Source of the DNA: Desulfobulbaceae bacterium
Lineage (GTDB): Bacteria > Desulfobacterota > Desulfobulbia > Desulfobulbales > Desulfobulbaceae
Assembly (NCBI GenBank): GCA_011389815.1
Contig: JAABTP010000006.1
Span: 1-64,000, forward strand
Direction: 5' to 3'
Length of the DNA: 64,000 nucleotides
Below are positions 119-20,016 of the stretch, one piece after another. Each line of letters starts with the position of its first letter. Positions within the stretch are counted from its first letter, which is position 1. The notes below the pieces were generated by a model. The model was not told the DNA's origin. It saw only the letters and a list, made by a program, of their open reading frames with translations, and did no database searches. A program made the translations under genes and the position numbers.

Positions 119-838
119 ATGTTCCCCGCACATGCGGGGATGAACCGACAGGTGATACCCCTGCTGTTGGGGCGAGGGTAATGTTCCCCGCACATGCGGG
201 GATGAACCGCCCGGAACAATCTACAAGCTGAAGTGCATCTCATGTTCCCCGCACATGCGGGGATGAACCGACGGTTGAGTAGGAATTCAACGGCAATGCT
301 TTATGTTCCCCGCACACGCGGGGATGAACCGTCCTTGGCTGCAATATAAAGCCACCGTCAATCATGTTCCCCGCACACGCGGGGATGAACCGCCATGCAG
401 CTGGCATGGAGAGAGGTTAAAACCATGTTCCCCGCACACGCGGGGATGAACCGTACCGGCAGCGTCAAGTATATTTATTGTTATCATGTTCCCCGCACAC
501 GCGGGGATGAACCCCGTACCGTCCTCAAAATCCAGATGTTTAGTTAATGTTCCCCGCACACGCGGGGATGAACCGGTCAAGATCTCCGGCAAAGAGTATA
601 CCGGCCCATGTTCCCCGCACTCGCGGGGATGAACCGCAGCATTACACAACAGAGCAGCGCAAAGGACTATGTTCCCCGCACTCGCGGGGATGAACCGCCT
701 AAAAAGAAGGTTTCGGAAGTTGAAAAACCATGTTCCCCGCACACGCGGGGATGAACCGCGGTACGTTGTCCACAATTGCGGACAGACCTGCATGTTCCCC
801 GCACACGCGGGGATGAACCACACGCGGGGATGAACCCC
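119..838 (+). CRISPR. CRISPR array 1, type I-E, 12 repeats plus one truncated
   Basis: Repeats are 29 bp, with core CCCCGCACACGCGGGG flanked by ATGTT and ATGAACCG, and start at 119, 181, 242, 303, 364, 425, 486, 547, 608, 669, 730 and 792. Spacers are 32-33 nt. Repeat variants are ordered: the first three carry CATGCG, the next five CACACG, then two CACTCG, then two CACACG. The repeats at 486 and 792 differ in the final base. Repeat 12 is followed with no spacer by the 3' part of another repeat (about 818-838), so the distal end is deleted. The palindromic repeat matches the type I-E family, for which Cas6e is the processing enzyme. Confidence 0.98.
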
Positions 839-850
839 GTACACTCCATC

Positions 851-3613
851 ATGGCCGATCTGTCCGACGACAAAACCTATTTCCTGTATTGGGCCAAAAC
901 CGACCGCAGCAAGGAGAGCAGCCCCGGCACCTGTCACCTCCTGCCCTACCACTGCCTGGATGTGGCGGCGGTGGGCAGCGTCCTGCTGCGGAAAAACCGA
1001 CCCCTCCTTGATTTTTTCACCGAGCATACAGGGCTGGACGAACAAACCTTCACCGGCCTTGCCTGCTCCTTCCTCGCCCTGCACGATGTGGGGAAATTCA
1101 GCGAGGCATTCCAGGGCCTGCAGGAAGACCTTCTCTATCAATTCAGAGGCCGGAAAAAAAGCAAGCCCTATGATCATCTCCATCACGACAGCCTGGGTTT
1201 TTTGCTCTGGCGCGATCGTCTGGCAAAACAGTTCTGCTCCGCCCATCTCGCGGAGCACGAAGACCTCTGGGACTGGCAGGATTTTTTGGAGATCTGGGCC
1301 CTGGCCTGTACCGGTCATCACGGTCAGCCGCCCAAAGGCAGCGACCGGCCCCTCCTGCGCTGGTTTTTGCCGGAAAACCTTGCAGCGGCAGAGGCATTCA
1401 GCTGTTTCTGCGGCCGCTTCTTTCTTCAGGATATCGTTCTTGCCGCACCTATAGATTTCCAGCTATGGAGCAGACAGATGCGCTGCCTGTCCTGGTGGCT
1501 GGCCGGTTTTGCCGTGCTCTGCGACTGGCTGGGATCAAACAGCGACTTTTTCCCTCTGCGCAGCGAACCTCTTGACCTGGAGGCCTATTGGCAGGAGATT
1601 GCGTTGCCGGCAGCGGAACGGATCATCCAGAACAGCGATATTCTCCCTCTCCCGTGCAGTACGCCGACCACGCTTTCCGGCCTGTTTCCATCCATAATAC
1701 ATACGCCGACACCGTTGCAGGCCGAGACGGCACGCATCGAGATCGGACAGGGACCGCATCTCTTCATCCTGGAGGACGTGACCGGGGCGGGAAAAACAGA
1801 GGCCGCGTTTATGCTCCTGCACCGCCTGATGACAGAAGGCGGAGCCGAAGGGGCCTACTTCGCCCTGCCCACTATGGCCACGGCCAATGCTATGTACCAG
1901 CGGACAGGGGCGGTGTACAGGCAACTCTATGCAGAGGGTTCCAGTCCTTCGTTGGTTCTGGCGCACGGATCGCGGCACCTGATGGACGGTTTTGTCCGTT
2001 CCGTGCTTCCCGCCTCTCCCAACGGGCAGCTTGGTCAGGCACCAGCGGAAGACCGAGAGGCTGCGGTCTCCTGCGCAGCCTGGTTGGCCGACAACCGCAA
2101 AAAGGCCCTGCTGGCCCATATCGGAGCAGGCACGGTGGATCAGGCCCTGCTCGCTGTGCTCTGTTCCCGGCATCAGTCCATGCGTCTGCTCGGCCTGCGC
2201 AACAAGGTGCTGATCGTGGACGAGGTCCATGCCTGTGATGCCTACATGCATCAGCTCCTGCAAGTCCTGCTGACCTTTCATGCCGCAGCAGGCGGCAGTG
2301 CGATCCTGCTTTCCGCCACCCTGCCGTCGGCCATGCGGGAGGAACTGCTTGCCGCCTATGCCGCCGGTCTGGGACAGCACGGCCCGGTTCCGGCAAAGAG
2401 CGGCTATCCCCTGCTGACCCTGTTCACTGCCGGGCAACTGCATGAACTGGAAATCGCCACCCGCAATGAGGTGCGCAGAAAGCTCTCCTTCACCCTGTTC
2501 AGGGAGGAGCAGGAGGCGCTTGACCTGATCCTGGAAAAAACGAGGCAGGGCCAATGTGTGGCCTGGGTGCGCAACACGGTTGCGGAGGCTATCAAGAGTT
2601 ACGAGCAGCTGCGTACCCTGCTGCCCCAGGACAGTATCCGGGACAAAATTATGCTCTTCCATGCCCGCTTCGCGCTCAGTGATCGGCTGGCAACAGAAGA
2701 ACAGGTGCTTGCTCGTTTCGGCAAGAACAGCAGAGCAAGAGACCGGCAGGGCCGGGTGCTCATCGCCACCCAGGTAATCGAGCAGTCCCTGGACCTGGAT
2801 TTCGACTGCATGATCTCGGATCTCGCCCCCATCGATCTGCTGATTCAGCGGGCAGGCCGTCTGCGCCGCCATACCAGAGACCGGCAGGGTAATCCCATTG
2901 ATCGTCCAGATGAACGCGGCGCACCGACCCTGCATGTATTGGGGCCTGAGCCGTCGGATGATGCGGGCGCAGGCTGGTTTTCCACGCTCTTTCCCACAGC
3001 GGTCAAGGTATATGATGATCATGGCCGCCTCTGGTTGACAGCTCGTTATTTGCAGGAGAACGGACAGCTGCGGGTACCGGAGGATATGCGGTCGGCTGTC
3101 GAGTATGTGTATGGGCCGGACAGTGAGGTGCGTATTCCCGAAGGACTGGTCGTGCAAAGCCGGGAGGCCGAAACAGGGGCCATGACCGACCGCTCTCTTG
3201 CCAAAATGAACAGCATCAATTTTGCAGAAGGCTATACCATGCCGGATCATTCCTGGTGGGACGAATCCGTGACCCCGACCCGGCTCGGCGAACCCTCAAT
3301 TGCTCTGCGTCTGGCTAAATGGCGGGACGGCAGACTCCGGCCCTGGTCTGCTGCGGAGCAAAACCCCTGGACCCTGAGTGAGGTCAGCGTGCGCAAGCGA
3401 CTGGCTGCGGAAGAGGCTGTGCCCCAGAATGCAGACTGTGCGGCAGCAATGGCTGCTTTGCAGGAACAGTGGGGCGGTCGACGGAATTTTTCCCTGCTTG
3501 TGCCGCTGGTGGAGATTGAGGACGGAACCTGGCAGGGCTGCGTCAAGAACGGGCAGGGCGAGGAAGTGCCTGTCCGCTATTCGCCGGATACCGGGCTGGT
3601 GCTTGGTGGCTAA
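851..3613 (+). CDS. cas3: Cas3 HD nuclease-helicase (type I-E)
   Basis: Recruited by target-bound Cascade to nick, unwind and degrade DNA. With the start at 851 the protein is 920 aa, a normal length. The N-terminal HD nuclease domain shows His34 (YHCLD) and the His78-Asp79 pair (ALHDVGKF), with further histidines near 109-112 (HLHHD). The SF2 helicase follows: Walker A VTGAGKTEAAF near 309, DEVH near 457, SAT motif LLSATLP, and the C-terminal helicase motif QRAGRLRRH. An in-frame ATG at 830 lies inside the truncated last CRISPR repeat; the ATG at 851 gives an N-terminus more like E. coli Cas3. Neither has a convincing ribosome-binding site, and no room is left for a separate promoter, so expression may depend on transcription through array 1. 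Confidence 0.96.
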   Translation: MADLSDDKTYFLYWAKTDRSKESSPGTCHLLPYHCLDVAAVGSVLLRKNRPLLDFFTEHTGLDEQTFTGLACSFLALHDVGKFSEAFQGLQEDLLYQFRGRKKSKPYDHLHHDSLGFLLWRDRLAKQFCSAHLAEHEDLWDWQDFLEIWALACTGHHGQPPKGSDRPLLRWFLPENLAAAEAFSCFCGRFFLQDIVLAAPIDFQLWSRQMRCLSWWLAGFAVLCDWLGSNSDFFPLRSEPLDLEAYWQEIALPAAERIIQNSDILPLPCSTPTTLSGLFPSIIHTPTPLQAETARIEIGQGPHLFILEDVTGAGKTEAAFMLLHRLMTEGGAEGAYFALPTMATANAMYQRTGAVYRQLYAEGSSPSLVLAHGSRHLMDGFVRSVLPASPNGQLGQAPAEDREAAVSCAAWLADNRKKALLAHIGAGTVDQALLAVLCSRHQSMRLLGLRNKVLIVDEVHACDAYMHQLLQVLLTFHAAAGGSAILLSATLPSAMREELLAAYAAGLGQHGPVPAKSGYPLLTLFTAGQLHELEIATRNEVRRKLSFTLFREEQEALDLILEKTRQGQCVAWVRNTVAEAIKSYEQLRTLLPQDSIRDKIMLFHARFALSDRLATEEQVLARFGKNSRARDRQGRVLIATQVIEQSLDLDFDCMISDLAPIDLLIQRAGRLRRHTRDRQGNPIDRPDERGAPTLHVLGPEPSDDAGAGWFSTLFPTAVKVYDDHGRLWLTARYLQENGQLRVPEDMRSAVEYVYGPDSEVRIPEGLVVQSREAETGAMTDRSLAKMNSINFAEGYTMPDHSWWDESVTPTRLGEPSIALRLAKWRDGRLRPWSAAEQNPWTLSEVSVRKRLAAEEAVPQNADCAAAMAALQEQWGGRRNFSLLVPLVEIEDGTWQGCVKNGQGEEVPVRYSPDTGLVLGG

Positions 3614-3627
3614 GGTGTCGTTTCCGT

Positions 3628-3732
3628 GCCCGGTGTTGAAACACCGGGCTATTACCGACAGTCCCTCCGGGACGCTGTTTTCCCCAGCCCCGGAGGGGCG
3701 ATCAAAAATAGCCCATTGTTTTAACGATGGGC
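3628..3732. repeat. Triple-hairpin intergenic element
   Basis: Three consecutive inverted repeats lie between cas3 and casA: 3628-3649 (10-bp arms, GCCCGGTGTT), 3663-3697 (9-bp arms, CCCTCCGGG) and 3711-3732 (10-bp arms with one G-T pair). The block looks like a REP-type intergenic element rather than a terminator, since no T-tract follows. It could still stabilise or attenuate the cas mRNA. The assignment as a mobile repeat is inference. Confidence 0.6.
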
Positions 3733-3774
3733 ATCCTTTCTGAAATCCGAAATCGTACTCAAAAAAGGAGGCAT

Positions 3775-5388
3775 ATGAACCTCATCAACGACCAATGGCT
3801 GCCGGTGTACCGCAGGAGCGGCACAAGTTTCCGGATTGCTCCCTGGCAGCTCACTGACGACATGGCGCAGGATCCTGTGGAAAAGTTCAATGCCCTGCGA
3901 CCGGATTTCAACGGTGCCCTGGTGCAGTTCTGCATCGGGCTTGTCCAGACCGCCTTTGCCCCGAAAAATGACCGGGAATGGATGGCCCTGTATCAGACAC
4001 CGCCGGAACCGCAGGTTTTGCAGGAAGCCATGCAGTCGTATCAACACGCCTTTGAGGCGGACGGTGACGGCCCTTGCTTTATGCAGGATTTTGACCTGCC
4101 GGACGGCGAAGCAAAGGGAATCGGCGCGCTCCTGCTTGAGGAGCCTGGCGGCAACGCCCTGCGGCTGAACACGGATCACTTTATCAAACGGGGTAATGCC
4201 GAGGCCATGAGTCCGGCAATGGCAATGACCGCACTGCTGACCTTACAGCTGAACGCCCCTGCCGGCGGGGTTGGCCACCGGGTCTCGATTCGCGGCGGCG
4301 GGCCGCTGACCACTCTGCTGACCCCGGATCTCCAGGAAAATCCGGAACACAATACGCTCTGGCATCTGGTCTGGCTCAATGTGCTGCCCAGGGAGGTCTT
4401 TGAACGGTCATCCGGCAACCCGGCGCAAAAAGACAAAACTGCCATCTTTCCCTGGCTCGGTCCGACCCGGAAAAGTAGGGGCGACCGGCCGGTCGCCCCT
4501 ACCGACCGGGATACCACGCCGGAAGATGTCCATCCCTTGCAGATGTACTGGAGTATGCCCAGGCGTATCCGCCTTGAATGGAGCGAAACGGAAGAAGGGG
4601 AGTGCTCGCTGTCCGGGGAAAGCGGTTTGCTTGTCCGCCGCTTCAGAACCAAAAATTACGGCATCAACTACACCGGCCCCTGGCAGCATCCTTTGAGTCC
4701 GTATCGCTTTGACCCGCAGGGCATGCCGCTGCCGCTCCATGCGCAGCCGGACGGACTCAGCTACCGGCACTGGCTCAGTCTCGCCCTGGGCAATATCGCA
4801 GAAAAAGACCAAAGGGCTGCTGCCGCAGTTGTCCACTATCATACGCAGAAGAGCGGGAGACGCAAGAAGATCAAGACCAAGCTCTGGACATTTGGCTATG
4901 ATATGGACAACATGAAGGCCAGGGGTTGGCACGAGGCCCATATGCCGCTGGTGCATCTGGAACCGGAGTACAGGGAGTATTTCATTGATATGGTGCGGGA
5001 CATCCTCAATGCCACCGGTCAGGTGGCGGATAACCTGCGGGGTGCCCTGAAAAAGGCCTGGTTCAAGCCCAAGGCCAAGGTCGGCGGTGATCTGTCCTTT
5101 ATCGTCAACGCCTTCTGGCAAAACACGGAAGCGGATTTTTATGCCCTGCTGTCGGATATCCATGCGGCAGTTGTCAAAGGAGGAGATGAAATATCCTTGT
5201 ATCATAGATGGTTTCAGGTTATTGATGCTGCTTCACAGCAGCTCTTGAGCACCTGGACTGCCAGCGGCAGGATAGAACATGAAGATCCGAAACGCATTGC
5301 CTTGGCGCATCTTGATCTTCGCAAATTCAACAGGAAAAAGGTGATTCAAGAAATCCTGCGGCTCAATATGGAAGAAGCGGAAGCATGA
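3775..5388 (+). CDS. casA: Cascade large subunit Cse1 (CasA, Cas8e)
   Basis: Large subunit of the type I-E Cascade, which recognises the PAM and recruits Cas3. It is 537 aa, close to the usual length. The N-terminus NLINDQWLPVYRRSG and the motif TTPEDVHPLQMYWSMPRRI are typical of the family. The start at 3775 is set by AAGGAGG three bases upstream; an earlier ATG at 3727 lies in the intergenic hairpin element and is unlikely. Residues about 234-243 are encoded by a perfect 28-bp palindrome (4475-4502) that keeps the frame and sits between the conserved FPWLGPTR and TTPEDVHP segments. It therefore looks like an insertion into a loop. Confidence 0.96.
   Translation: MNLINDQWLPVYRRSGTSFRIAPWQLTDDMAQDPVEKFNALRPDFNGALVQFCIGLVQTAFAPKNDREWMALYQTPPEPQVLQEAMQSYQHAFEADGDGPCFMQDFDLPDGEAKGIGALLLEEPGGNALRLNTDHFIKRGNAEAMSPAMAMTALLTLQLNAPAGGVGHRVSIRGGGPLTTLLTPDLQENPEHNTLWHLVWLNVLPREVFERSSGNPAQKDKTAIFPWLGPTRKSRGDRPVAPTDRDTTPEDVHPLQMYWSMPRRIRLEWSETEEGECSLSGESGLLVRRFRTKNYGINYTGPWQHPLSPYRFDPQGMPLPLHAQPDGLSYRHWLSLALGNIAEKDQRAAAAVVHYHTQKSGRRKKIKTKLWTFGYDMDNMKARGWHEAHMPLVHLEPEYREYFIDMVRDILNATGQVADNLRGALKKAWFKPKAKVGGDLSFIVNAFWQNTEADFYALLSDIHAAVVKGGDEISLYHRWFQVIDAASQQLLSTWTASGRIEHEDPKRIALAHLDLRKFNRKKVIQEILRLNMEEAEA
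4475..4502. repeat. 28-bp palindrome inserted in casA
   Basis: This is a perfect palindrome with 14-bp arms (GTAGGGGCGACCGG and its complement) and no loop. It belongs to the same family as the intergenic palindromes at 8731, 20062, 24187, 47416 and elsewhere in this window. It adds about ten codons to casA without a stop or frame change. Confidence 0.85.
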
Positions 5389-5414
5389 GCAGGATATAAC
5401 GCAAGAGGGAATCT

Positions 5415-5918
5415 ATGACAACAGAAGCGGCAGAAGCAAAGAATACGAGAACAATCAATGCGGAACAGCAGGCAGTGCTGGAGTGGTGGCAAGCACTTCA
5501 GGACAACAAGGGCGGCAGAGCCGAACTGCGTCGGGCAAAGGAGCTTGAACAGGTCTTTTTTTCGCCCGAGTTTTATAGCCTGTACAACAGGCTCGCTCCG
5601 CTGCAATGGCGGAGCAGGGAAAAACTGGCCCTGCTGGCCGGGGTACTGGCCCATGTCAGAACCCATACAGCAGCGCAGAGCGTGGCCAAACAGATGGCCT
5701 CCCCGGGCAAAAGCGGGTCCAAGGCCGTGTTGAGCGGCCTGCGCTTCCGCCGTCTGCTCAAACATGAAACAGCCGAAGAACTGTACGGACCCATGATCCG
5801 GGTCATTCGGCTGCTCGACAAGAAGATCAATATAGCGGACCTGGCGCAAAGCCTCTATTGGTGGAACAGCCGGACCAAGATGGACTGGTCCATGCGCTAT
5901 TATAAAAAAGCACCATAG
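5415..5918 (+). CDS. casB: Cascade small subunit Cse2 (CasB)
   Basis: Small alpha-helical Cascade subunit, present as a dimer, that stabilises the R-loop and contacts the non-target strand. It is 167 aa, normal for the family. Recognisable features are VLEWWQALQDNKGGRAELRR near the N-terminus, the conserved FRRLLKHE segment and the arginine-rich surface around it. It lies 26 nt after casA in the same operon. Its stop codon overlaps the first base of a short palindrome of the dispersed family. Confidence 0.93.
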   Translation: MTTEAAEAKNTRTINAEQQAVLEWWQALQDNKGGRAELRRAKELEQVFFSPEFYSLYNRLAPLQWRSREKLALLAGVLAHVRTHTAAQSVAKQMASPGKSGSKAVLSGLRFRRLLKHETAEELYGPMIRVIRLLDKKINIADLAQSLYWWNSRTKMDWSMRYYKKAP

Positions 5919-5943
5919 GGCCGACCTATGTGTCTGCCCGGTA
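5917..5943. repeat. Short palindrome after casB
   Basis: GGGCCGAC and GTCTGCCC flank a 6-nt loop (5918-5939) with one mismatch, followed by GGTA. It is nearly the same as the element at 24187-24208, which also ends GTCTGCCCGGTA. It occupies the start of the 129-nt casB-casC gap, which holds no gene that I can see. Confidence 0.6.
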
Positions 5944-6047
5944 CTGTTGAAACGAGAAGTTTTTTGTCCCTCTATTTATCAGGTTTCCTCACCTGACCCG
6001 AATGCGGGACAGGCTGAAAAGATCATGAAATCATACGGAGAAACTCT

Positions 6048-7172
6048 ATGGATACCTTTCTGCAACTGCACCTCTTAACCTCTTATCCGCCTTCCAATCT
6101 CAATCGGGATGACCTGGGTCGCCCGAAAACTGCGCTCATGGGCGGGGCAACCCGGCTGCGCATCTCTTCCCAGAGCCTGAAACGGGCATGGCGTACCTCA
6201 GAACTTTTTGAAACTGCATTGAAAGGCCATGTCGGCACCAGAACCAAGGAGATGGGTGTAAAAATATACAGAAAGTTCAGCGAACAGGGTATCAGCCATA
6301 AAAAAGCCCTGGAATGGGCCGGGGCCATAGCTGAAGTTTTCGGCAAGAGAAAGAAAGCATTGACCCCGGCGGAGAAAAAGAAACTGAAGGATGATGAAAA
6401 TTTGACGACGGAGAAAAAGCTGAGAAAAGAACTGGTTGAAGTCGAGATAGAGCAGCTGGCTCATTTCGGCCCGGCAGAGGAACAGGCTGTGTGGGCCTTG
6501 GTGGATACCGTCATTGCCCGGCAGGCAGGGCCGGAAAAAGAAGAGCTGGATTTATTACGGGCCAAGTCCGGTGCTGCGGATATCGCCCTGTTCGGTCGAA
6601 TGCTCGCCTCTCATCCGTCTTTTAATATGGAGGCTGCGGCCCAGGTGGCCCATGCGGTCACGGTAAACAAGGTGGCAGTGGAGGATGACTTTTTCACGGC
6701 AGTGGATGATTTGAATAACGGTGAAGAGGACATGGGTGCCGGACATATGGGAGAGACCGAATTCGGCTCCGGTGTGTTCTACCTTTACATCTGTATTGAC
6801 CGGCGTCTGTTGCTGGAAAATTTGGATGGAGACCAGGAGCTTGCAAACAAGGCCCTGGCTGCTCTGATTGAATGCGCTGTCAAGGTCGCTCCGGGCGGCA
6901 AACAGAACAGCTTTGCCTCCCGTGCCTATGCCTCGTTCATTGCCTGTGAAACAGGGAATCAGCAACCCCGTTCCCTGTCCGTGGCCTTTCTGGAACCGGT
7001 CAACGAAAAGGGCAAGGAAAAAAATATGCTGGCAGCAGCTATACAACGGTTGCAGGAGACCCGGACCAATATGGACAGGGTGTACGGCCCCTGTTCTGCA
7101 ACATACTGCGAAATGAACGCCCATACCAGGGAAGGCAGTTTACAGGATATGATTCAATGCGCAACGGAGTAG
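6048..7172 (+). CDS. casC: Cascade backbone subunit Cas7e (CasC, Cse4)
   Basis: Forms the crRNA-coating backbone of Cascade (six copies in E. coli). It is 374 aa, the usual size. The N-terminus FLQLHLLTSYPPSNLNRDD and RLRISSQSLKRAWR are family hallmarks (binding of the crRNA backbone), as is KQNSFASRAYA in the C-terminal half. The start codon is preceded by GGAGAAACTCT. A lysine-rich stretch (residues about 105-130) sits in a variable region. Part of the casA-casE operon. Confidence 0.96.
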   Translation: MDTFLQLHLLTSYPPSNLNRDDLGRPKTALMGGATRLRISSQSLKRAWRTSELFETALKGHVGTRTKEMGVKIYRKFSEQGISHKKALEWAGAIAEVFGKRKKALTPAEKKKLKDDENLTTEKKLRKELVEVEIEQLAHFGPAEEQAVWALVDTVIARQAGPEKEELDLLRAKSGAADIALFGRMLASHPSFNMEAAAQVAHAVTVNKVAVEDDFFTAVDDLNNGEEDMGAGHMGETEFGSGVFYLYICIDRRLLLENLDGDQELANKALAALIECAVKVAPGGKQNSFASRAYASFIACETGNQQPRSLSVAFLEPVNEKGKEKNMLAAAIQRLQETRTNMDRVYGPCSATYCEMNAHTREGSLQDMIQCATE

Positions 7173-7177
7173 TTGAT

Positions 7178-8008
7178 ATGCAGAAATTTCTCGTTTTTCA
7201 GCTCTACGGTCCGTTGGCTTCCTGGGGTGAGGTTGCTGTGGGTGGTGAACGGCCTGCAGCAGCCCATCCGGGCAGATCCGCCATTCTCGGTCTGTTGGCG
7301 GCAGCAGCTGGCATCCGGCGGCATGAGGAGGAAGAGCATCAGGCCCTGGAACAGGCATTCGGCATGGCCGTGTGCGTGGAGTCTTCAGGAACCTTTGTCA
7401 ATGACTACCACACGGCCCAGGTTCCGCCCCAGGCAGCCCTTAAAAAGCATCCGGCAAAGACCCGCCGTGACGAACTCCTGGCCCTGGCTGCATATCAAAA
7501 AGATAATCCCAAAACATCGGGCACCATCCTCTCCAACAGGGCCTATCGCTGTGATGCCCTGTATCAGATTGCGCTCTGGAAACGGCAGGAGGGTTCGCTG
7601 ACTCTGGAACAAGCCGGGGGATATCTTGCCTGCCCGAACTTTACCCTGTATCTGGGCCGCAAATCCTGCCCTCCGGCCCTGCCGTTGCAGCCGCAGCTTG
7701 TGGAGGCGGAAAATCTGGTTGCTGCGTTCAACAAGGCGGACCTGACCTCTCCGCAGGAGTTTGTGCAGAGCTTGCAGCAAGGAAGCAGCAGGCCAAAGGC
7801 GGACAGGACAAGGCATCTGTTCAGGAAACAGCCTGTGACCCTGTTCTGGGACAGTGCAGAGGGGGTGGAGAGCGGCGTTCCGGCGCAGGAAACCTTTGTC
7901 CGGCGGGATGCGGTGCTGTCCCGGAAGCGGTGGCAATTTGAAGAGCGGAAGGAACACTATGCCCCATGGCCGCAAGAGCCGCCGCAGCCGCAACAGGAGG
8001 GGAGCTGA
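7178..8008 (+). CDS. casD: Cascade subunit Cas5e (CasD)
   Basis: Binds the 5' handle of the crRNA at the foot of Cascade. It is 276 aa, slightly longer than many Cas5e. The RAMP N-terminus FLVFQLYGPLASWGE is diagnostic, as is the following glycine-rich GLLAAAAGIRR. The start is placed at the ATG at 7178, five bases after the casC stop and 8 nt after GGAG; an upstream in-frame ATG at 7157 would overlap casC. Its stop is one base from the casE start, so the two are probably translationally coupled. Confidence 0.94.
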   Translation: MQKFLVFQLYGPLASWGEVAVGGERPAAAHPGRSAILGLLAAAAGIRRHEEEEHQALEQAFGMAVCVESSGTFVNDYHTAQVPPQAALKKHPAKTRRDELLALAAYQKDNPKTSGTILSNRAYRCDALYQIALWKRQEGSLTLEQAGGYLACPNFTLYLGRKSCPPALPLQPQLVEAENLVAAFNKADLTSPQEFVQSLQQGSSRPKADRTRHLFRKQPVTLFWDSAEGVESGVPAQETFVRRDAVLSRKRWQFEERKEHYAPWPQEPPQPQQEGS

Positions 8009-8009
8009 T

Positions 8010-8687
8010 ATGTTTTTCAGTAAAATGACCTTCCAGGAACACGGCATTGCTCCGGCGGAAAGGATGCGCATCCTGCGGAGTCCCTATGCCCTGCATCAGG
8101 CAGTCTGGCAGCTCTTTAGCGACAGCCCGGAACGGGAACGGGATTTTATGTATCGACTGGATCGGGACGGTCTGCGTCCGGTGGTCTACACGGTCAGTGA
8201 ACGGGAGCCCGAGGATCGGAGTACGGTCTGGCAGGTTGCGGTCAAGGACTATACGCCTGTGCTCAGGATAGGGACAGAGCTGGGCTTTCTGCTCAGGGCC
8301 AATCCGGTGGTGACGAAAAAGGATGCCCAGGGCAGGCGGCGGCATGATGTGGTGATGGATAGGAAAAAAACTTTGCAGGAACAGGGGGTGACGAAACAGG
8401 ACATGCCTTCTTCAGCAGAACTGGCCCAGGAGGCCGGATGGGACTGGCTGGCCTGTCGGGCGGAACAGTACGGCTTTACCGCCCGGCAGGAAAATGTGCT
8501 GGTGGAGGGCTACCGTCAGGAGGTCTTCCCCAAAAACAGGAATGGCCCGAAGATCCGCTTCAGCCTGCTGGATTTCAGCGGCAGGCTCACCGTGACGGAC
8601 CCGGATTTGTTTCTCCGCACCCTGTTCCGGGGCATGGGCCCGGCCAAGGCATTCGGCTGCGGCCTGCTCCTGGTGCGAAGGATATAG
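8010..8687 (+). CDS. casE: crRNA-processing endoribonuclease Cas6e (CasE)
   Basis: Cleaves the pre-crRNA at the base of the repeat hairpin and stays bound to the 3' handle. It is 225 aa. The start at 8010 follows AGGAGGGGAG, and the N-terminus FFSKMTF is typical. The catalytic-region His (ALHQAVWQLF) and the C-terminal glycine-rich loop GMGPAKAFGCGLLLVRR are clear. It is the last intact cas gene; the expected next genes, cas1 and cas2, are absent except for a Cas2 tail further on. Confidence 0.95.
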   Translation: MFFSKMTFQEHGIAPAERMRILRSPYALHQAVWQLFSDSPERERDFMYRLDRDGLRPVVYTVSEREPEDRSTVWQVAVKDYTPVLRIGTELGFLLRANPVVTKKDAQGRRRHDVVMDRKKTLQEQGVTKQDMPSSAELAQEAGWDWLACRAEQYGFTARQENVLVEGYRQEVFPKNRNGPKIRFSLLDFSGRLTVTDPDLFLRTLFRGMGPAKAFGCGLLLVRRI

Positions 8688-8812: not shown

Positions 8813-10010
<1,198 letters not shown>

Positions 10011-10026
10011 AGTAGATACAATTGGT

Positions 10027-10886
10027 ATGTTCCCCGCACTCGCGGGGATGAACCGGTATCCGACAACAGCAGATCCAAAAAAAGAAGATGTTCCCCGCAC
10101 TCGCGGGGATGAACCGGTGTGCCGCTTGAGCTGCTGGAGGATCAAAGCATGTTCCCCGCACTCGCGGGGATGAACCGTCATCTTGCACGGATCAAATATC
10201 TACGTTATAATGTTCCCCGCACTCGCGGGGATGAACCGCCCAGCCTGGCATTTACCATCAGGGCCAAAGTATGTTCCCCGCACTCGCGGGGATGAACCGC
10301 CACCTGGTTAGCGTCGGCCTTCCAGGATATAATGTTCCCCGCACTCGCGGGGATGAACCGTATAGACGGTATGCCAACACCGCAGCTTTACTATGTTCCC
10401 CGCACTCGCGGGGATGAACCGACATAGACCTACCCGATGCGGTTATGGTTAATATGTTCCCCGCACTCGCGGGGATGAACCGAGCAGGCGGCAGCACAGG
10501 CAGAGGAGGAGCGGCATGTTCCCCGCACTCGCGGGGATGAACCGGAACTAATCAAGGTCTATGACGAGACCGGTAGCATGTTCCCCGCACTCGCGGGGAT
10601 GAACCGAATTTCAATGCCCAGCTCGCCAGCCTCTTTATATGTTCCCCGCACTCGCGGGGATGAACCGGCAAACGTAAAATAATGCTTACCTTTGTCGATA
10701 TGTTCCCCGCACTCGCGGGGATGAACCGACCAAAACGGCATCAGAACCGTCATAAAATCCCATGTTCCCCGCACTCGCGGGGATGAACCGTTTCCAAGTG
10801 GTTTGCTGAGCATGAAGTAGGTATGTTCCCCGCACACGCGGGGATGAACCGTTCGATAGATTTTTTCTTGGCGGTATTAACTGATG
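10027..10886 (+). CRISPR. CRISPR array 2, type I-E, 14 intact repeats plus split 15th
   Basis: Repeats of 29 bp start at 10027, 10088, 10149, 10210, 10271, 10332, 10393, 10454, 10516, 10578, 10639, 10700, 10762 and 10823, with spacers of 32-33 nt. The first 13 carry the core CCCCGCACTCGCGGGG; the one at 10823 carries CACACG. A normal 32-nt spacer follows (10852-10883), and then only ATG, the first three bases of repeat 15 (10884-10886), before an inserted gene cassette. The rest of repeat 15 is at 11297-11322. The same repeat as array 1, so both are served by the same Cascade. Confidence 0.97.
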
Positions 10887-10909
10887 TTCGGCAGCAAGGC
10901 ACATCTGAT

Positions 10910-11236
10910 ATGCAAATGCAGTTCGAGATAATAAAAGAGCGGCCAAAAATAAGTGTCCGGGTGACCCGTGATTCTGTCTGTGCTGGGGATGATGCAGATG
11001 CACCCCATGAGAAACTGATCGAAATACCGAGCTTTATAGATCCAATGGCCCTTTATGCTCATATCGGCACATCCTACCTCCCGGGCGTCAATGGATATGG
11101 CCATTCATGGGATTTGATGTTAAACGGCAATCTCATTGGGGTATATGGATCCGGCTCATTCAAGCCCAAGGTGAAAGAGGTGGCATATGCGGAGAGCAAT
11201 CATGTTCATTTTAAATACCATTCCGCTGCATACTAA
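10910..11236 (+). CDS. Cassette-borne protein of unknown function
   Basis: A 108-aa protein I do not recognise. It starts at the ATG at 10910, eleven bases after AAGG; a second Met is at codon 3. The middle has IPSFIDPMALYAHIGTSYLPG and the C-terminus is rich in aromatic and glycine residues (GYGHSWDLML, GVYGSGSFKPK). There is no signal peptide or membrane segment. It is the sole gene of the integron cassette, which fits the pattern that most cassette genes are single, promoterless and uncharacterised. Transcription would have to come from array 2 read-through. Confidence 0.75.
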   Translation: MQMQFEIIKERPKISVRVTRDSVCAGDDADAPHEKLIEIPSFIDPMALYAHIGTSYLPGVNGYGHSWDLMLNGNLIGVYGSGSFKPKVKEVAYAESNHVHFKYHSAAY

Positions 11237-11242
11237 TCAGCT

Positions 11243-11296
11243 GCCGAACAAGGCGCTTGTTGGGACGCCGCTTCGCGGCGCCCCACAGCTTTGACG
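11243..11296 (+). other. attC: attC recombination site of the cassette
   Basis: R'' box GCCGAAC at 11243-11249, then AAGGCGCTTGTTGG, a central hairpin GACGCCGCTTCGCGGCGC, then CCCCACAGCTTTGAC and the G of the crossover GTT at 11296. Spacing and core match classical short attC sites such as that of aadA cassettes, including the same GACGCCGCTTCGCGGCGC core. In the circular form R' would be GTTCGGC, restored by the first six bases of the cassette. Confidence 0.85.
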
Positions 11297-11322
11297 TTCC
11301 CCGCACACGCGGGGATGAACCG
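11297..11322 (+). CRISPR. Right part of split CRISPR repeat 15
   Basis: TTCCCC followed by GCACACGCGGGGATGAACCG: the 26 bases that complete ATG at 10884-10886. Downstream the next 650 nt contain the HicAB genes rather than a normal spacer. Confidence 0.92.
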
Positions 11323-11350
11323 GTAGCGAGCCAATCCCGATACCAATCAA

Positions 11351-11686
11351 CTAAGAACTAAGCACAGCCTGTTCCAGCGTATCCGCCACCCATTTGTTCA
11401 GACTTTTTCCGGTATGGGCCGCAGCAGCAGAAAGTTGCGCATGAACCGAGGGCGCAATGCGCAAGGTCAGTTTACCGGAATAGGGTTTATCCGGGGAACG
11501 GCCTTCCTGTTTGCAGTCGGCAAGATAATGTTCAACCGCATTATGAAAGTCCTGGGTGAGCTGGCTCACTGTTTCCCCCTCAAAGCTGATATTGTCCTTG
11601 ATACCGATGACTTTACCCCAGAATATATTATCCCGTGCGTCAAAATTGACTTTCGCAGAATACCCCTTATAGGTCATCATGTTCAT
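11351..11686 (-). CDS. hicB: HicB-family antitoxin
   Basis: 111 aa. The N-terminal part has the partial RNase-H-like HicB fold (YKGYSAKVNFDARDNIFWGKV, then VSQLTQDFHNAVEHYL), and the C-terminus is a ribbon-helix-helix DNA-binding domain (KLTLRIAPSVHAQL, HTGKSLNKWVADTL). It neutralises HicA and probably represses the operon. It follows hicA with an ATGA overlap and a GGAGG ribosome site inside the hicA end. The last codons reach into the expected spacer position next to repeat 15. Confidence 0.92.
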   Translation of the reverse strand: MNMMTYKGYSAKVNFDARDNIFWGKVIGIKDNISFEGETVSQLTQDFHNAVEHYLADCKQEGRSPDKPYSGKLTLRIAPSVHAQLSAAAAHTGKSLNKWVADTLEQAVLSS

Positions 11687-11937
11687 GGCCTTACCTCCAA
11701 TTCCGTCAACCAGTTACGAATCTTTTCCACCATATATCTTTTCGCTTCTTTCCCCGGATGCGGCCTGTGCGCATATTGCCGGGATGCAAAAAGTTCTAAG
11801 ACCACCCGTGAACCGTTCCCCTCGCGAACATCACCGCCAAGGGCCTTTATCAATGATTCAATATCGCTGAACTTGATATTTGCCCTTGTGGGTTCGGCAA
11901 AAATGGCTGCTAATGTTTTCCGGTGTTTCCCTTTCAT
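11683..11937 (-). CDS. hicA: HicA-family mRNA interferase toxin
   Basis: 84 aa from the ATG at 11937 (MKGKHRKTLAAIFAEP). Matches the HicA double-stranded-RNA-binding-like toxin family, with DIESLIKALGGDV, GSRVVLELF and the conserved RPHPGKEAKRYMVEKIRNWL. The active His is probably in RPHPG. Toxin-first gene order, with hicB overlapping by four bases. It is transcribed against the CRISPR array and lies between repeat 15 and the last degenerate repeat. Confidence 0.92.
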   Translation of the reverse strand: MKGKHRKTLAAIFAEPTRANIKFSDIESLIKALGGDVREGNGSRVVLELFASRQYAHRPHPGKEAKRYMVEKIRNWLTELEVRP

Positions 11938-11974
11938 GATAAATATGGTAGCACTTTGTGACGCTGCTGGCAAG

Positions 11975-12003
11975 ATATTCCCCGCACACGCGGGGATGAA
12001 CCT
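11975..12003 (+). CRISPR. Last, degenerate CRISPR repeat
   Basis: Carries the core CCCCGCACACGCGGGG and GATGAACC, but has A instead of G at position 3 and T at position 29. It lies 38 nt beyond the hicA start, on the same strand as array 2. No further repeat follows, so this is the trailer end of array 2. Confidence 0.85.
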
Positions 12004-12233: not shown

Positions 12234-12239
12234 TTATTT
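12212..12239 (+). terminator. Intrinsic-type terminator at the end of the array 2 region
   Basis: CTCCAACC and GGTTGGAG form an 8-bp stem with a 3-nt loop, followed on the plus strand by TTTTTATTT. It could end transcripts running through array 2 and its inserts. The same bases encode the LQPLVGE part of the DUF1016 remnant, so it may be fortuitous. Confidence 0.55.
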
Positions 12240-12899
12240 GTACTTCTGTAATTCGTTGTATTTGAGAAGGATAATCATGTTGCCTTGTACCCGGATGAGG
12301 CCTTCACGGGTCAAATACGCAAATATTCTGGAAAGATTTTCCGGGCTGGTGCCCAGCAGGCAGGCCAGTTGCGATTTGGGCATATCAAGAAGAACCCGGT
12401 CGGTTCTTTTTTGTTGTTCGGAAAGATAGATAAGGTGTGCGATCAGGCGCTGCGGTACTTCTTTGAGCGCAAGATCTCCTATTTTGGTGGAGAACATGCA
12501 CAGGCGCTTTGACAGCCCGGCCAACATGCCCAGGGCAAGGGGAGGGTAAGTGCTTGTCATGGCGAGAAACTCTGTTTTGGGAAAGAAAAGAACCGTGGAC
12601 GGTGTCATGCTTGCCGCAGTAGCGGGATAGATTTTGTTATGAAAAAGCGGCGTGAGCCCAAAGGGTTCTCCCGGACCAAGGACATAGATTATCTGTTCTT
12701 TGCCTTTGAGCGAGGACTTATAGATCTTTATCTGGCCTTGGCTGACAAGATAGAATCCGGTGATTGATCTACCTTCCGAAAAAATGATTTCTCCTTTTTG
12801 ATAGGTTTTCGTGTAGGTTATATCGGCAATTCGGCTGACCAGCTCATCGGAAAGCTCCTTAAAAAAGAATGAATTGGTCAGCAGTTTTTTTTTATTCAT
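12234..12899 (-). CDS. Crp/Fnr-family transcriptional regulator
   Basis: 221 aa. The N-terminal cyclic-nucleotide-binding-like beta-barrel (about 10-125) has YQKGEIIFSEGRSITGFYLV and VLGPGEPFGLTPLF. The long dimerisation helix is near 125-150 and the C-terminal winged helix (150-215) has MPKSQLACLLGTSPENLSRIF as the recognition region. There is no Fnr-type N-terminal cysteine cluster, so it is not a classical oxygen-sensing Fnr. It lies upstream of and divergent from the nap operon, the usual place for a regulator of nitrate/nitric-oxide respiration, so control of nap is likely but not shown. Confidence 0.88.
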   Translation of the reverse strand: MNKKKLLTNSFFFKELSDELVSRIADITYTKTYQKGEIIFSEGRSITGFYLVSQGQIKIYKSSLKGKEQIIYVLGPGEPFGLTPLFHNKIYPATAASMTPSTVLFFPKTEFLAMTSTYPPLALGMLAGLSKRLCMFSTKIGDLALKEVPQRLIAHLIYLSEQQKRTDRVLLDMPKSQLACLLGTSPENLSRIFAYLTREGLIRVQGNMIILLKYNELQKYK

Positions 12900-13096
12900 T
12901 AACCGGAATCAGCAGATTGAAGGGGAAGGGCGCAGCTCAAGGCGGACAAGTACAAAAACTGAAAGTTTATTGCAAAGCTTCGGGTTTCATACGCCGCCCT
13001 TTGGGGCGGGGTCGTTTATTAGACACCGGAGGGAGGATTTTGTCAACTGCTTCCTTCTGTTATAATGCCGGAGGCGGAAAAAATGCCCCGGCAGCA

Positions 13097-13348
13097 GTGC
13101 AGAATGATGTTTACCTGCTGCAGGATCATTTTCTCCTGCTGCAGGATCATTTTCTCCTGCTACAGGATCATTTTTTCCCGCTACAGGATCATTTTCTCCC
13201 GTTACAGAATGCCTTTCTCCCGTTGCAGAGCCGCTTTTTCCTGCTCCGAAACCATTTCTTCCCGCTGCAGGGGCATGTTCTCCTGTCCCATGAGGATTTC
13301 CCCCTGCTCACAAGGTCTTTTGCCCTGTCCGCTACGATTTTTTCCTCT
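13097..13348. repeat. Degenerate 21-bp tandem repeat (copy A)
   Basis: About twelve units of 21 bp; units at 13118, 13139, 13160 and 13181 are nearly identical (CTGCAGGATCATTTTCTCCTG type, then drifting). On the minus strand each unit is seven codons (REKMILQ type heptad), which would form a coiled coil, but several units end in stop codons. Only a partial frame of 68 codons (13202-13408) stays open, starting at a TTG. A homologous block is at 53516-53662. It fills the gap between the Crp/Fnr gene and nap, with no clear gene on either strand. Confidence 0.8.
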
Positions 13349-19319: not shown

Positions 19320-19452
19320 CAATCTATAACTGCGTAAACTCCGAGCTGAAGAATCTACGTCTTCTTAACGTCCTTCTGGATTGATGGATATGATTTGAAG
19401 CCGAAAGGGTCTGGTTGGAAACGATTATGCCTCCCGTGTTTGGAAAGGAGTT

Positions 19453-20016
19453 TTACGTTGTCTCTTCTTGATGTTTCCTGCCTGTAGCAAAAAGGGCAAC
19501 CCCTGTTATTCCGGACATCCCGTTAAAGAGAATATCCCGGATATCAAAGACCCGATTAGGCAACCACCATTGGATCAGTTCATCAAAACTGCCAGCAAAC
19601 CAGACCAAAAGGCATGGTAAAATCCATTCATGTATGAGTGTTGTGTCGTTTGCCGATGATGCTGGAAAGTGTGCTCCTTCCTCTACACTCCAGCATATCA
19701 ACCAGCCAGCAAGTCCATAGGTGAGAAAATGGAGGCGTTCTTCAGGCAGGGCAGATATCAGGAAGGCTGAACAGAGCAGAAAGATGATCAAAAAGAAACG
19801 CAGAAGAAATTGTTTCCGGGTAATGGTTCGGTAGCGCCAGAACAGGATGAACGGCAAACTGCCAACAAAGAGGGCTATAATTACAGGGAGGAGTATTTCT
19901 GTTGAGCGAAGATATTCGGCGATTGGGCGGGCAATGCCCAGGGTGCCGTAGATACAGAGAATATAGGCAAGGGTCAGGGTAATACGTAGTTTTGTGGGTA
20001 CTCTTGTCTTCTGCAT
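19453..20016 (-). CDS. VanZ-like family membrane protein
   Basis: 187 aa with about five hydrophobic segments (11-30, 42-60, 70-88, 97-112, 132-150). The C-terminal signature FDELIQWWLPNRVFDIRDILFNGM is that of VanZ-like proteins, named for a teicoplanin-resistance factor but mostly of unknown function. It stands alone on the minus strand, facing napB. The 133 nt between them hold no gene I can see. Confidence 0.8.
   Translation of the reverse strand: MQKTRVPTKLRITLTLAYILCIYGTLGIARPIAEYLRSTEILLPVIIALFVGSLPFILFWRYRTITRKQFLLRFFLIIFLLCSAFLISALPEERLHFLTYGLAGWLICWSVEEGAHFPASSANDTTLIHEWILPCLLVWFAGSFDELIQWWLPNRVFDIRDILFNGMSGITGVALFATGRKHQEETT

Follow-up and report, generated by a model that had tools for sequence, protein, structure and literature searches.

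Integron recombination is known to place gene cassettes at secondary sites that are neither attI nor attC, termed attG. GTT-type secondary sites of the integrase IntI1 have been described (PMC10127599), as have attG sites (PMC12444791 and PMC12901181). Examples range from the aadB cassette in the IncQ plasmid RSF1010, a secondary-site insertion (Recchia and Hall 1995, as cited in PMC10127599), to genome-wide attG insertion (Loot et al. 2024, as cited in PMC12444791). Against this background a CRISPR repeat is an unusual target. The earlier note on this DNA knew of no description of a cassette inside a CRISPR array, and no published case emerged from the literature searched, which consisted mostly of papers outside subscription journals.

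The window, by which we mean the whole 64,000-nucleotide stretch of DNA analyzed, carries a CRISPR repeat split by a 410-bp segment with the organization of a gene cassette. The locus would represent the natural escape of an integron cassette to a non-integron site with an identifiable target in an environmental bacterium, and thus an event that joins two systems recording or storing foreign DNA. For attG events the point of insertion can seldom be located unless a relative is available for comparison; here the target, being a known repeated sequence, reveals it. An immune array would, moreover, be interruptible in a way that is exactly reversible in principle.

The CRISPR locus and its split repeat

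All features of the host locus lie on the plus strand. The genes cas3 (776–3613), cse1 (3727–5388), cse2 (5415–5918), cas7 (6048–7172), cas5 (7157–8008), and cas6 (7854–8687) were assigned through Pfam matches over 776–8687 to Cas3_HD, CRISPR_Cse1, CRISPR_Cse2, Cas_CT1975, Cas_Cas5d, and CRISPR_assoc/Cas6, and their order, together with 29-bp repeats and 32–33-nt spacers, identifies the system as type I-E. A leader (9835–10026), 73% identical to the pre-array region of the syntenic relative G002, precedes a leader-proximal array of 14 repeats of 29 bp (10027–10851). Neither cas1 nor cas2 was found between cas6 and the array in the window, in G002, or among the scanned open reading frames (ORFs) of contig C42 (loci L190 and L191). 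In the G002 locus (L190) the cas genes are 73–75% identical, the leader is conserved, and an array of 15 repeats runs without interruption; neither the cassette nor a hicBA pair is present at this place.

The last intact repeat upstream of the insertion, ATGTTCCCCGCACACGCGGGGATGAACCG (10823–10851), is followed by a 32-nt spacer (10852–10883), for which no exact match was found in viral contigs and whose 3′ end, TATTAACTG, supplies the target with an attI-like left half. Then come ATG (10884–10886), which forms the left 3 nt of the split repeat, the 410-bp insert (10887–11296), the right 26 nt of the repeat (11297–11322), and a distal spacer remnant (11323–11350) that reaches the hicB stop codon. 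Excision of 10887–11296 yields ATG|TTCCCCGCACACGCGGGGATGAACCG, a perfect 29-bp I-E repeat that matches the repeat at 10823–10851 letter for letter; the earlier note's claim that removal of this segment rebuilds a repeat behind a 32-nt spacer is thus correct to the coordinate. The insertion is distal to the leader, with 14 repeats before it and one after it (11294–11322), beyond which hicBA begins. This last repeat differs from the upstream repeat in its first bases alone (AC for AT) and retains the hairpin and the 5′ handle.

The original site was reconstructed from the repeat itself rather than from a strain with an empty site. A search of related genomes for the repeat with and without the cassette, as the earlier note had proposed, produced the uninterrupted syntenic array of G002; a direct empty site was not found in the seven genomes of the genus, which share no flanking spacers with the window. 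As to the crossover, GTTC is common to both junctions, and five cut positions within it yield an identical product. The proposed G^TT crossover on both sides is compatible with the junctions as one of these five equivalent positions, not as a uniquely proven cut; it is the one expected from known integrase behavior (PMC10127599) rather than measured.

Several other elements accompany the array. A hicBA toxin–antitoxin pair (minus strand, 11351–12002) lies between the last repeat and an orphan repeat (11974–12002) that is identical over 25 nt, and the array tail therefore holds two unrelated insertions. A hicBA copy, 84% identical, adjoins a Fic/RhuM-like gene at 721 kb of contig C2 in G002 (L020). 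In the window, a RhuM/Fic-domain gene (8813–9805) is found between cas6 and the leader; in G002 (L190) the leader directly follows cas6. Two more arrays use the same repeat family, one at 119–840 of the window, which ends at 792–837 in a partial repeat duplication (ACACGCGGGGATGAACC), and one at 100–320 of C42 (L017). Approximately ten 21-nt tandem units of the CAGGATCATTTTCTCCTGCTG type (13079–13309) lie upstream of a CRP-like gene (12234–12899, minus strand), and similar short-unit repeats occur behind both copies of the integron integrase gene intI in this genome (L015 10360–10850, L016 10040–10340) and in G002 (L190 12260–12640). Further downstream, a Moco (molybdenum/tungsten cofactor) riboswitch occupies 19327–19467 (67.8 bits).

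The inserted cassette and its attC site

The insert possesses the full anatomy of a gene cassette, as the earlier note had maintained. It begins TTCGGC and contains one short ORF (nt 24–350 of 410) that starts near the left end, with its ATG at position 10910, and stops just before the attC site, at 11236; the R″ box GCCGAAC follows at nt 357–363 (11243–11249). Together with the preceding G, the left end reads GTTCGGC (10886–10892, plus strand) and is complementary to R″ at seven of seven positions, confirming that the cassette supplies its own matching R′. Such a match arises in 0.8% of random end pairs from this window, and it is also seen in the native cassettes C160-1, C160-2, C196-1, and C196-2 of the same genome. 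The strict TTRRRY consensus is violated at its first R, which is C here, as it is in native cassettes that start TTCGGC or TTCGCT.

The ORF (10910–11236, plus strand) encodes a 108-amino acid protein with no family in Pfam, NCBIfam, PADLOC, or PHROGs. No relatives of the protein were found in 74 family genomes, 395 phylum genomes, or viral contigs, and plasmids gave weak matches only (two at 32–33% identity, one short). Its single-sequence fold prediction, with a pLDDT of 45.5, is unusable. No second copy of the cassette was found, nor another place for it in the assembly.

As it now stands, the candidate attC spans 60 nt (11243–11302, plus strand), with R″ at 11243–11249 and an R′ box, GTTCCCC, contributed by the repeat. 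Its bottom strand folds with every one of the seven R-box positions paired, spacers of 5 and 4 nt left unpaired, a central stem, and a 3-nt loop, and the L stem carries extrahelical bases, with L boxes that are atypical. The R box type, the AA after R″, and a GAC with an extrahelical A are shared with native attCs. Among 36 background R″/R′ pairs with a 7/7 match (1.48 Mb, both strands), none folds as well with its R box paired.

A strict-folding scan for attC sites missed native ones, and covariance models were used instead; Rfam has no match at the insertion site. The first model, R1, was built from six attCs, namely, four native sites found beside the integrases on contigs C196 and C160 and two from a Desulfobulbaceae relative; the second, R2, draws on 51 family-wide attC matches. 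The candidate was excluded from both. R1 scores it at 22.5 bits (E = 0.0039 in 323 kb of sequence and E = 0.048 over the full 4.0 Mb of the genome), and genome-wide it ranks directly after the four training sites and a held-out site on C35 (40.8 bits) and ahead of the next score of 16 bits. With filters off, R2 assigns it a score of 27.1 bits (E = 9.6e-5 over 30 kb), the next best being 10.3 bits; with default filters it does not report the candidate, and the L boxes are therefore atypical for the integrase clade. Both models place the candidate at the top of the window and above background; the earlier note, in suggesting that the site be folded and scored with a covariance model, had named a background-level score as a refutation. 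The candidate is weaker than the native attCs (22.5 vs. 43–51 bits in R1) and may stem from another integron lineage. Judged by its sequence and predicted fold it is an attC, albeit an unusual one for integrases of this clade.

The integrase and the probable route of insertion

The integrase gene that the earlier note had recommended looking for is present in the same draft genome, as an attG insertion would require. It lies on C196 (8720–9724), scores 434.9 bits against TIGR02249, above the curated cut-off, and has Phage_integrase and Phage_int_SAM_4 domains. A second intI, on C160 (L016 9244–9576), is represented by its 5′ part only, breaking off after approximately 90 codons; the attI next to it is intact, and cassettes are present there as well. 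The integrase has relatives in Desulfobulbaceae, Desulfobacula, Desulfocapsa, and similar bacteria, many of them from sediments; the host itself may be a Desulfobulbales bacterium, possibly Candidatus Electrothrix. Also present in the genome are at least five further attC sites, along with four sequences resembling attI. The attI-adjacent cassettes of C196 and C160 start TTCGCTG and TTCGGCA, immediately 3′ of ...ATTAATACTG. The first cassettes of these two native arrays are defense-like, encoding a GmrSD_N protein (L015 6729–8687) and a NucS_C-like protein (L016 8020–9069), both of which match candidate defense families in PADLOC. Across the family, attC matches are dispersed over the genomes, consistent with a spread beyond integrons. 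In G007, a single-contig genome of the same genus with no intI match at 1e-60, attC sites are scattered over the genome, which suggests that cassettes leave integrons in this genus.

Given the cassette anatomy, the attC, the intI gene, the attI-like sequences, and the other attCs in the genome, the best reading is insertion by an integron integrase, which very probably used the CRISPR repeat as an attG site. The use of the GTT of the repeat as a secondary site, as originally put forward, is partly supported, by the cassette, its attC, its left end, and the integrase; the part that concerns the exact cut stays ambiguous. A cassette circle would present its folded, single-stranded attC, which IntI would bring together with GATG^TTCCCC, the double-stranded target where spacer and repeat meet. 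Strand exchange at G^TT, followed by resolution through replication, would then leave the cassette between two parts of the repeat with no target duplication. We infer that the acting enzyme was the C196 copy or the now truncated C160 copy, and likewise the exact cut and the order of events.

The same ambiguity over GTTC at the two junctions would also suit a joining without integrase, whether illegitimate or homology-assisted, in which a cassette-bearing fragment entered through these 4 nt, which every repeat contains. However, both ends of the fragment must then fall exactly at the borders of a cassette in which the left end and R″ match at 7/7 positions, in a genome that encodes an integron integrase, and we regard such a joining as improbable.

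Integrase-mediated insertion could in turn be a general property of CRISPR arrays, serving as landing pads whose repeats offer a GTT and a hairpin to IntI, dozens of times per array according to the earlier note. The present case and the GTT in every repeat speak for this idea, but the surveys argue against it. An attC with R″ GCCNAACAA abutting a GTTCCCCGCNNNNGCGGGGAT I-E repeat, a single narrow pattern that does recover the window site, was found in none of 84,980 genomes, from which the window's own genome was possibly left out. A looser pattern applied to 258 genomes of the class returned this site and two ordinary arrays (L092 and L093), leaving this locus as the sole case and none in the 257 other genomes. 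The other attC loci fetched, those of the family included, lie outside CRISPR arrays (147 loci scanned, including other collections and the two ordinary arrays). These counts hold within the repeat and R″ types searched. Nor do the repeats behave as attC-like hairpins: mimicry of attC, in which adjacent repeats set GAAC and GTTC around a spacer in the manner of R″ and R′, was considered and rejected, the target ranking 35th of 42 folded repeat–spacer–repeat units, which fold unlike attC. The proposed role of the hairpin in targeting is likewise unsupported, and a landing-pad function is very unlikely. The event is real, yet it looks like an isolated accident, not something that CRISPR arrays regularly undergo.

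An assembly artefact, in which the array and an integron cassette were falsely connected within the contig, deserves mention in a draft of 233 contigs, where both repeats and cassette arrays are prone to misassembly. It is nonetheless highly unlikely: the assembly holds no other place as a source of the cassette, and two false joins over just four common bases would need to have recreated a perfect repeat while keeping the array consistent. Capture of an over-long spacer by Cas1–Cas2 has the position of the insert within an array in its favor and can be dismissed, since acquisition inserts DNA adjacent to the leader and copies an entire repeat, whereas this insert is leader-distal in a repeat that is split and unduplicated, and cas1 and cas2 are absent between cas6 and the array.

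Target choice, consequences, and comparison with known systems

Returning to insertion by an integron integrase, the choice of this particular repeat may lie in its resemblance to attI. The attI of this integrase clade reads TTTCCACTTATTAAYAMTG^TT and the target GGTATTAACTGATG^TT. By a weight matrix from 17 attI sites, with a 1-nt gap allowed, the target ranks first among the 31 repeats (window and C42 arrays), a post hoc ranking that it owes to a spacer ending in TATTAACTG. The same attI matrix places it within the top 1.9% of 4106 GTT sites, a resemblance that needs the 1-nt gap. These comparisons, made after the fact, suggest that the site was chosen because the spacer end TATTAACTG beside ATG^TT mimics attI (TATTAACAATG^TT in relatives). 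A more speculative extension, which we consider unlikely, is that new spacers beside the constant ATGTT keep making integrase targets, so that an attI-like spacer end becomes a surrogate attI where cassettes enter, are read from the leader, and leave while restoring the repeat.

The effect on immunity appears to be small. The spacer at 10852–10883 likely loses its 3′ repeat hairpin, and the distal repeat likely keeps its hairpin and 5′ handle. The earlier note held that the distal array is split or silenced by the cassette. With a sole repeat between the insert and hicBA, however, the effect extends to no more than the final one or two spacers, and little immunity is therefore at stake. The leader might drive expression of the cassette ORF, which is oriented in the direction in which the array is transcribed. 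If the cassette were excised at this site, the array would likely be restored seamlessly: the predicted empty repeat would read as the spacer at 10852–10883 followed by ATGTTCCCCGCACACG, and the excised circle would carry the junction ...TTTGACGTTCGGCAGC.

Among described events, attG insertions offer the closest parallel, with a single cassette that sits with its attC away from any integron, a site compatible with the GTT type, an unduplicated target, and an intI gene in the genome. Unlike the attG examples, this locus has a CRISPR repeat as its target and an environmental, Desulfobulbales-type integrase in place of IntI1, and it is natural rather than selected. With sedentary chromosomal integrons and CALINs it shares the attC design, the match between R″ and the left end, and attC sites scattered in the genus; in contrast to them, it comprises a lone cassette rather than an array, and it resides in a CRISPR locus. 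Insertion sequences can likewise interrupt CRISPR arrays, and there too mobile DNA breaks the array; here, however, transposase and target duplication are both absent, and excision could restore the repeat exactly.
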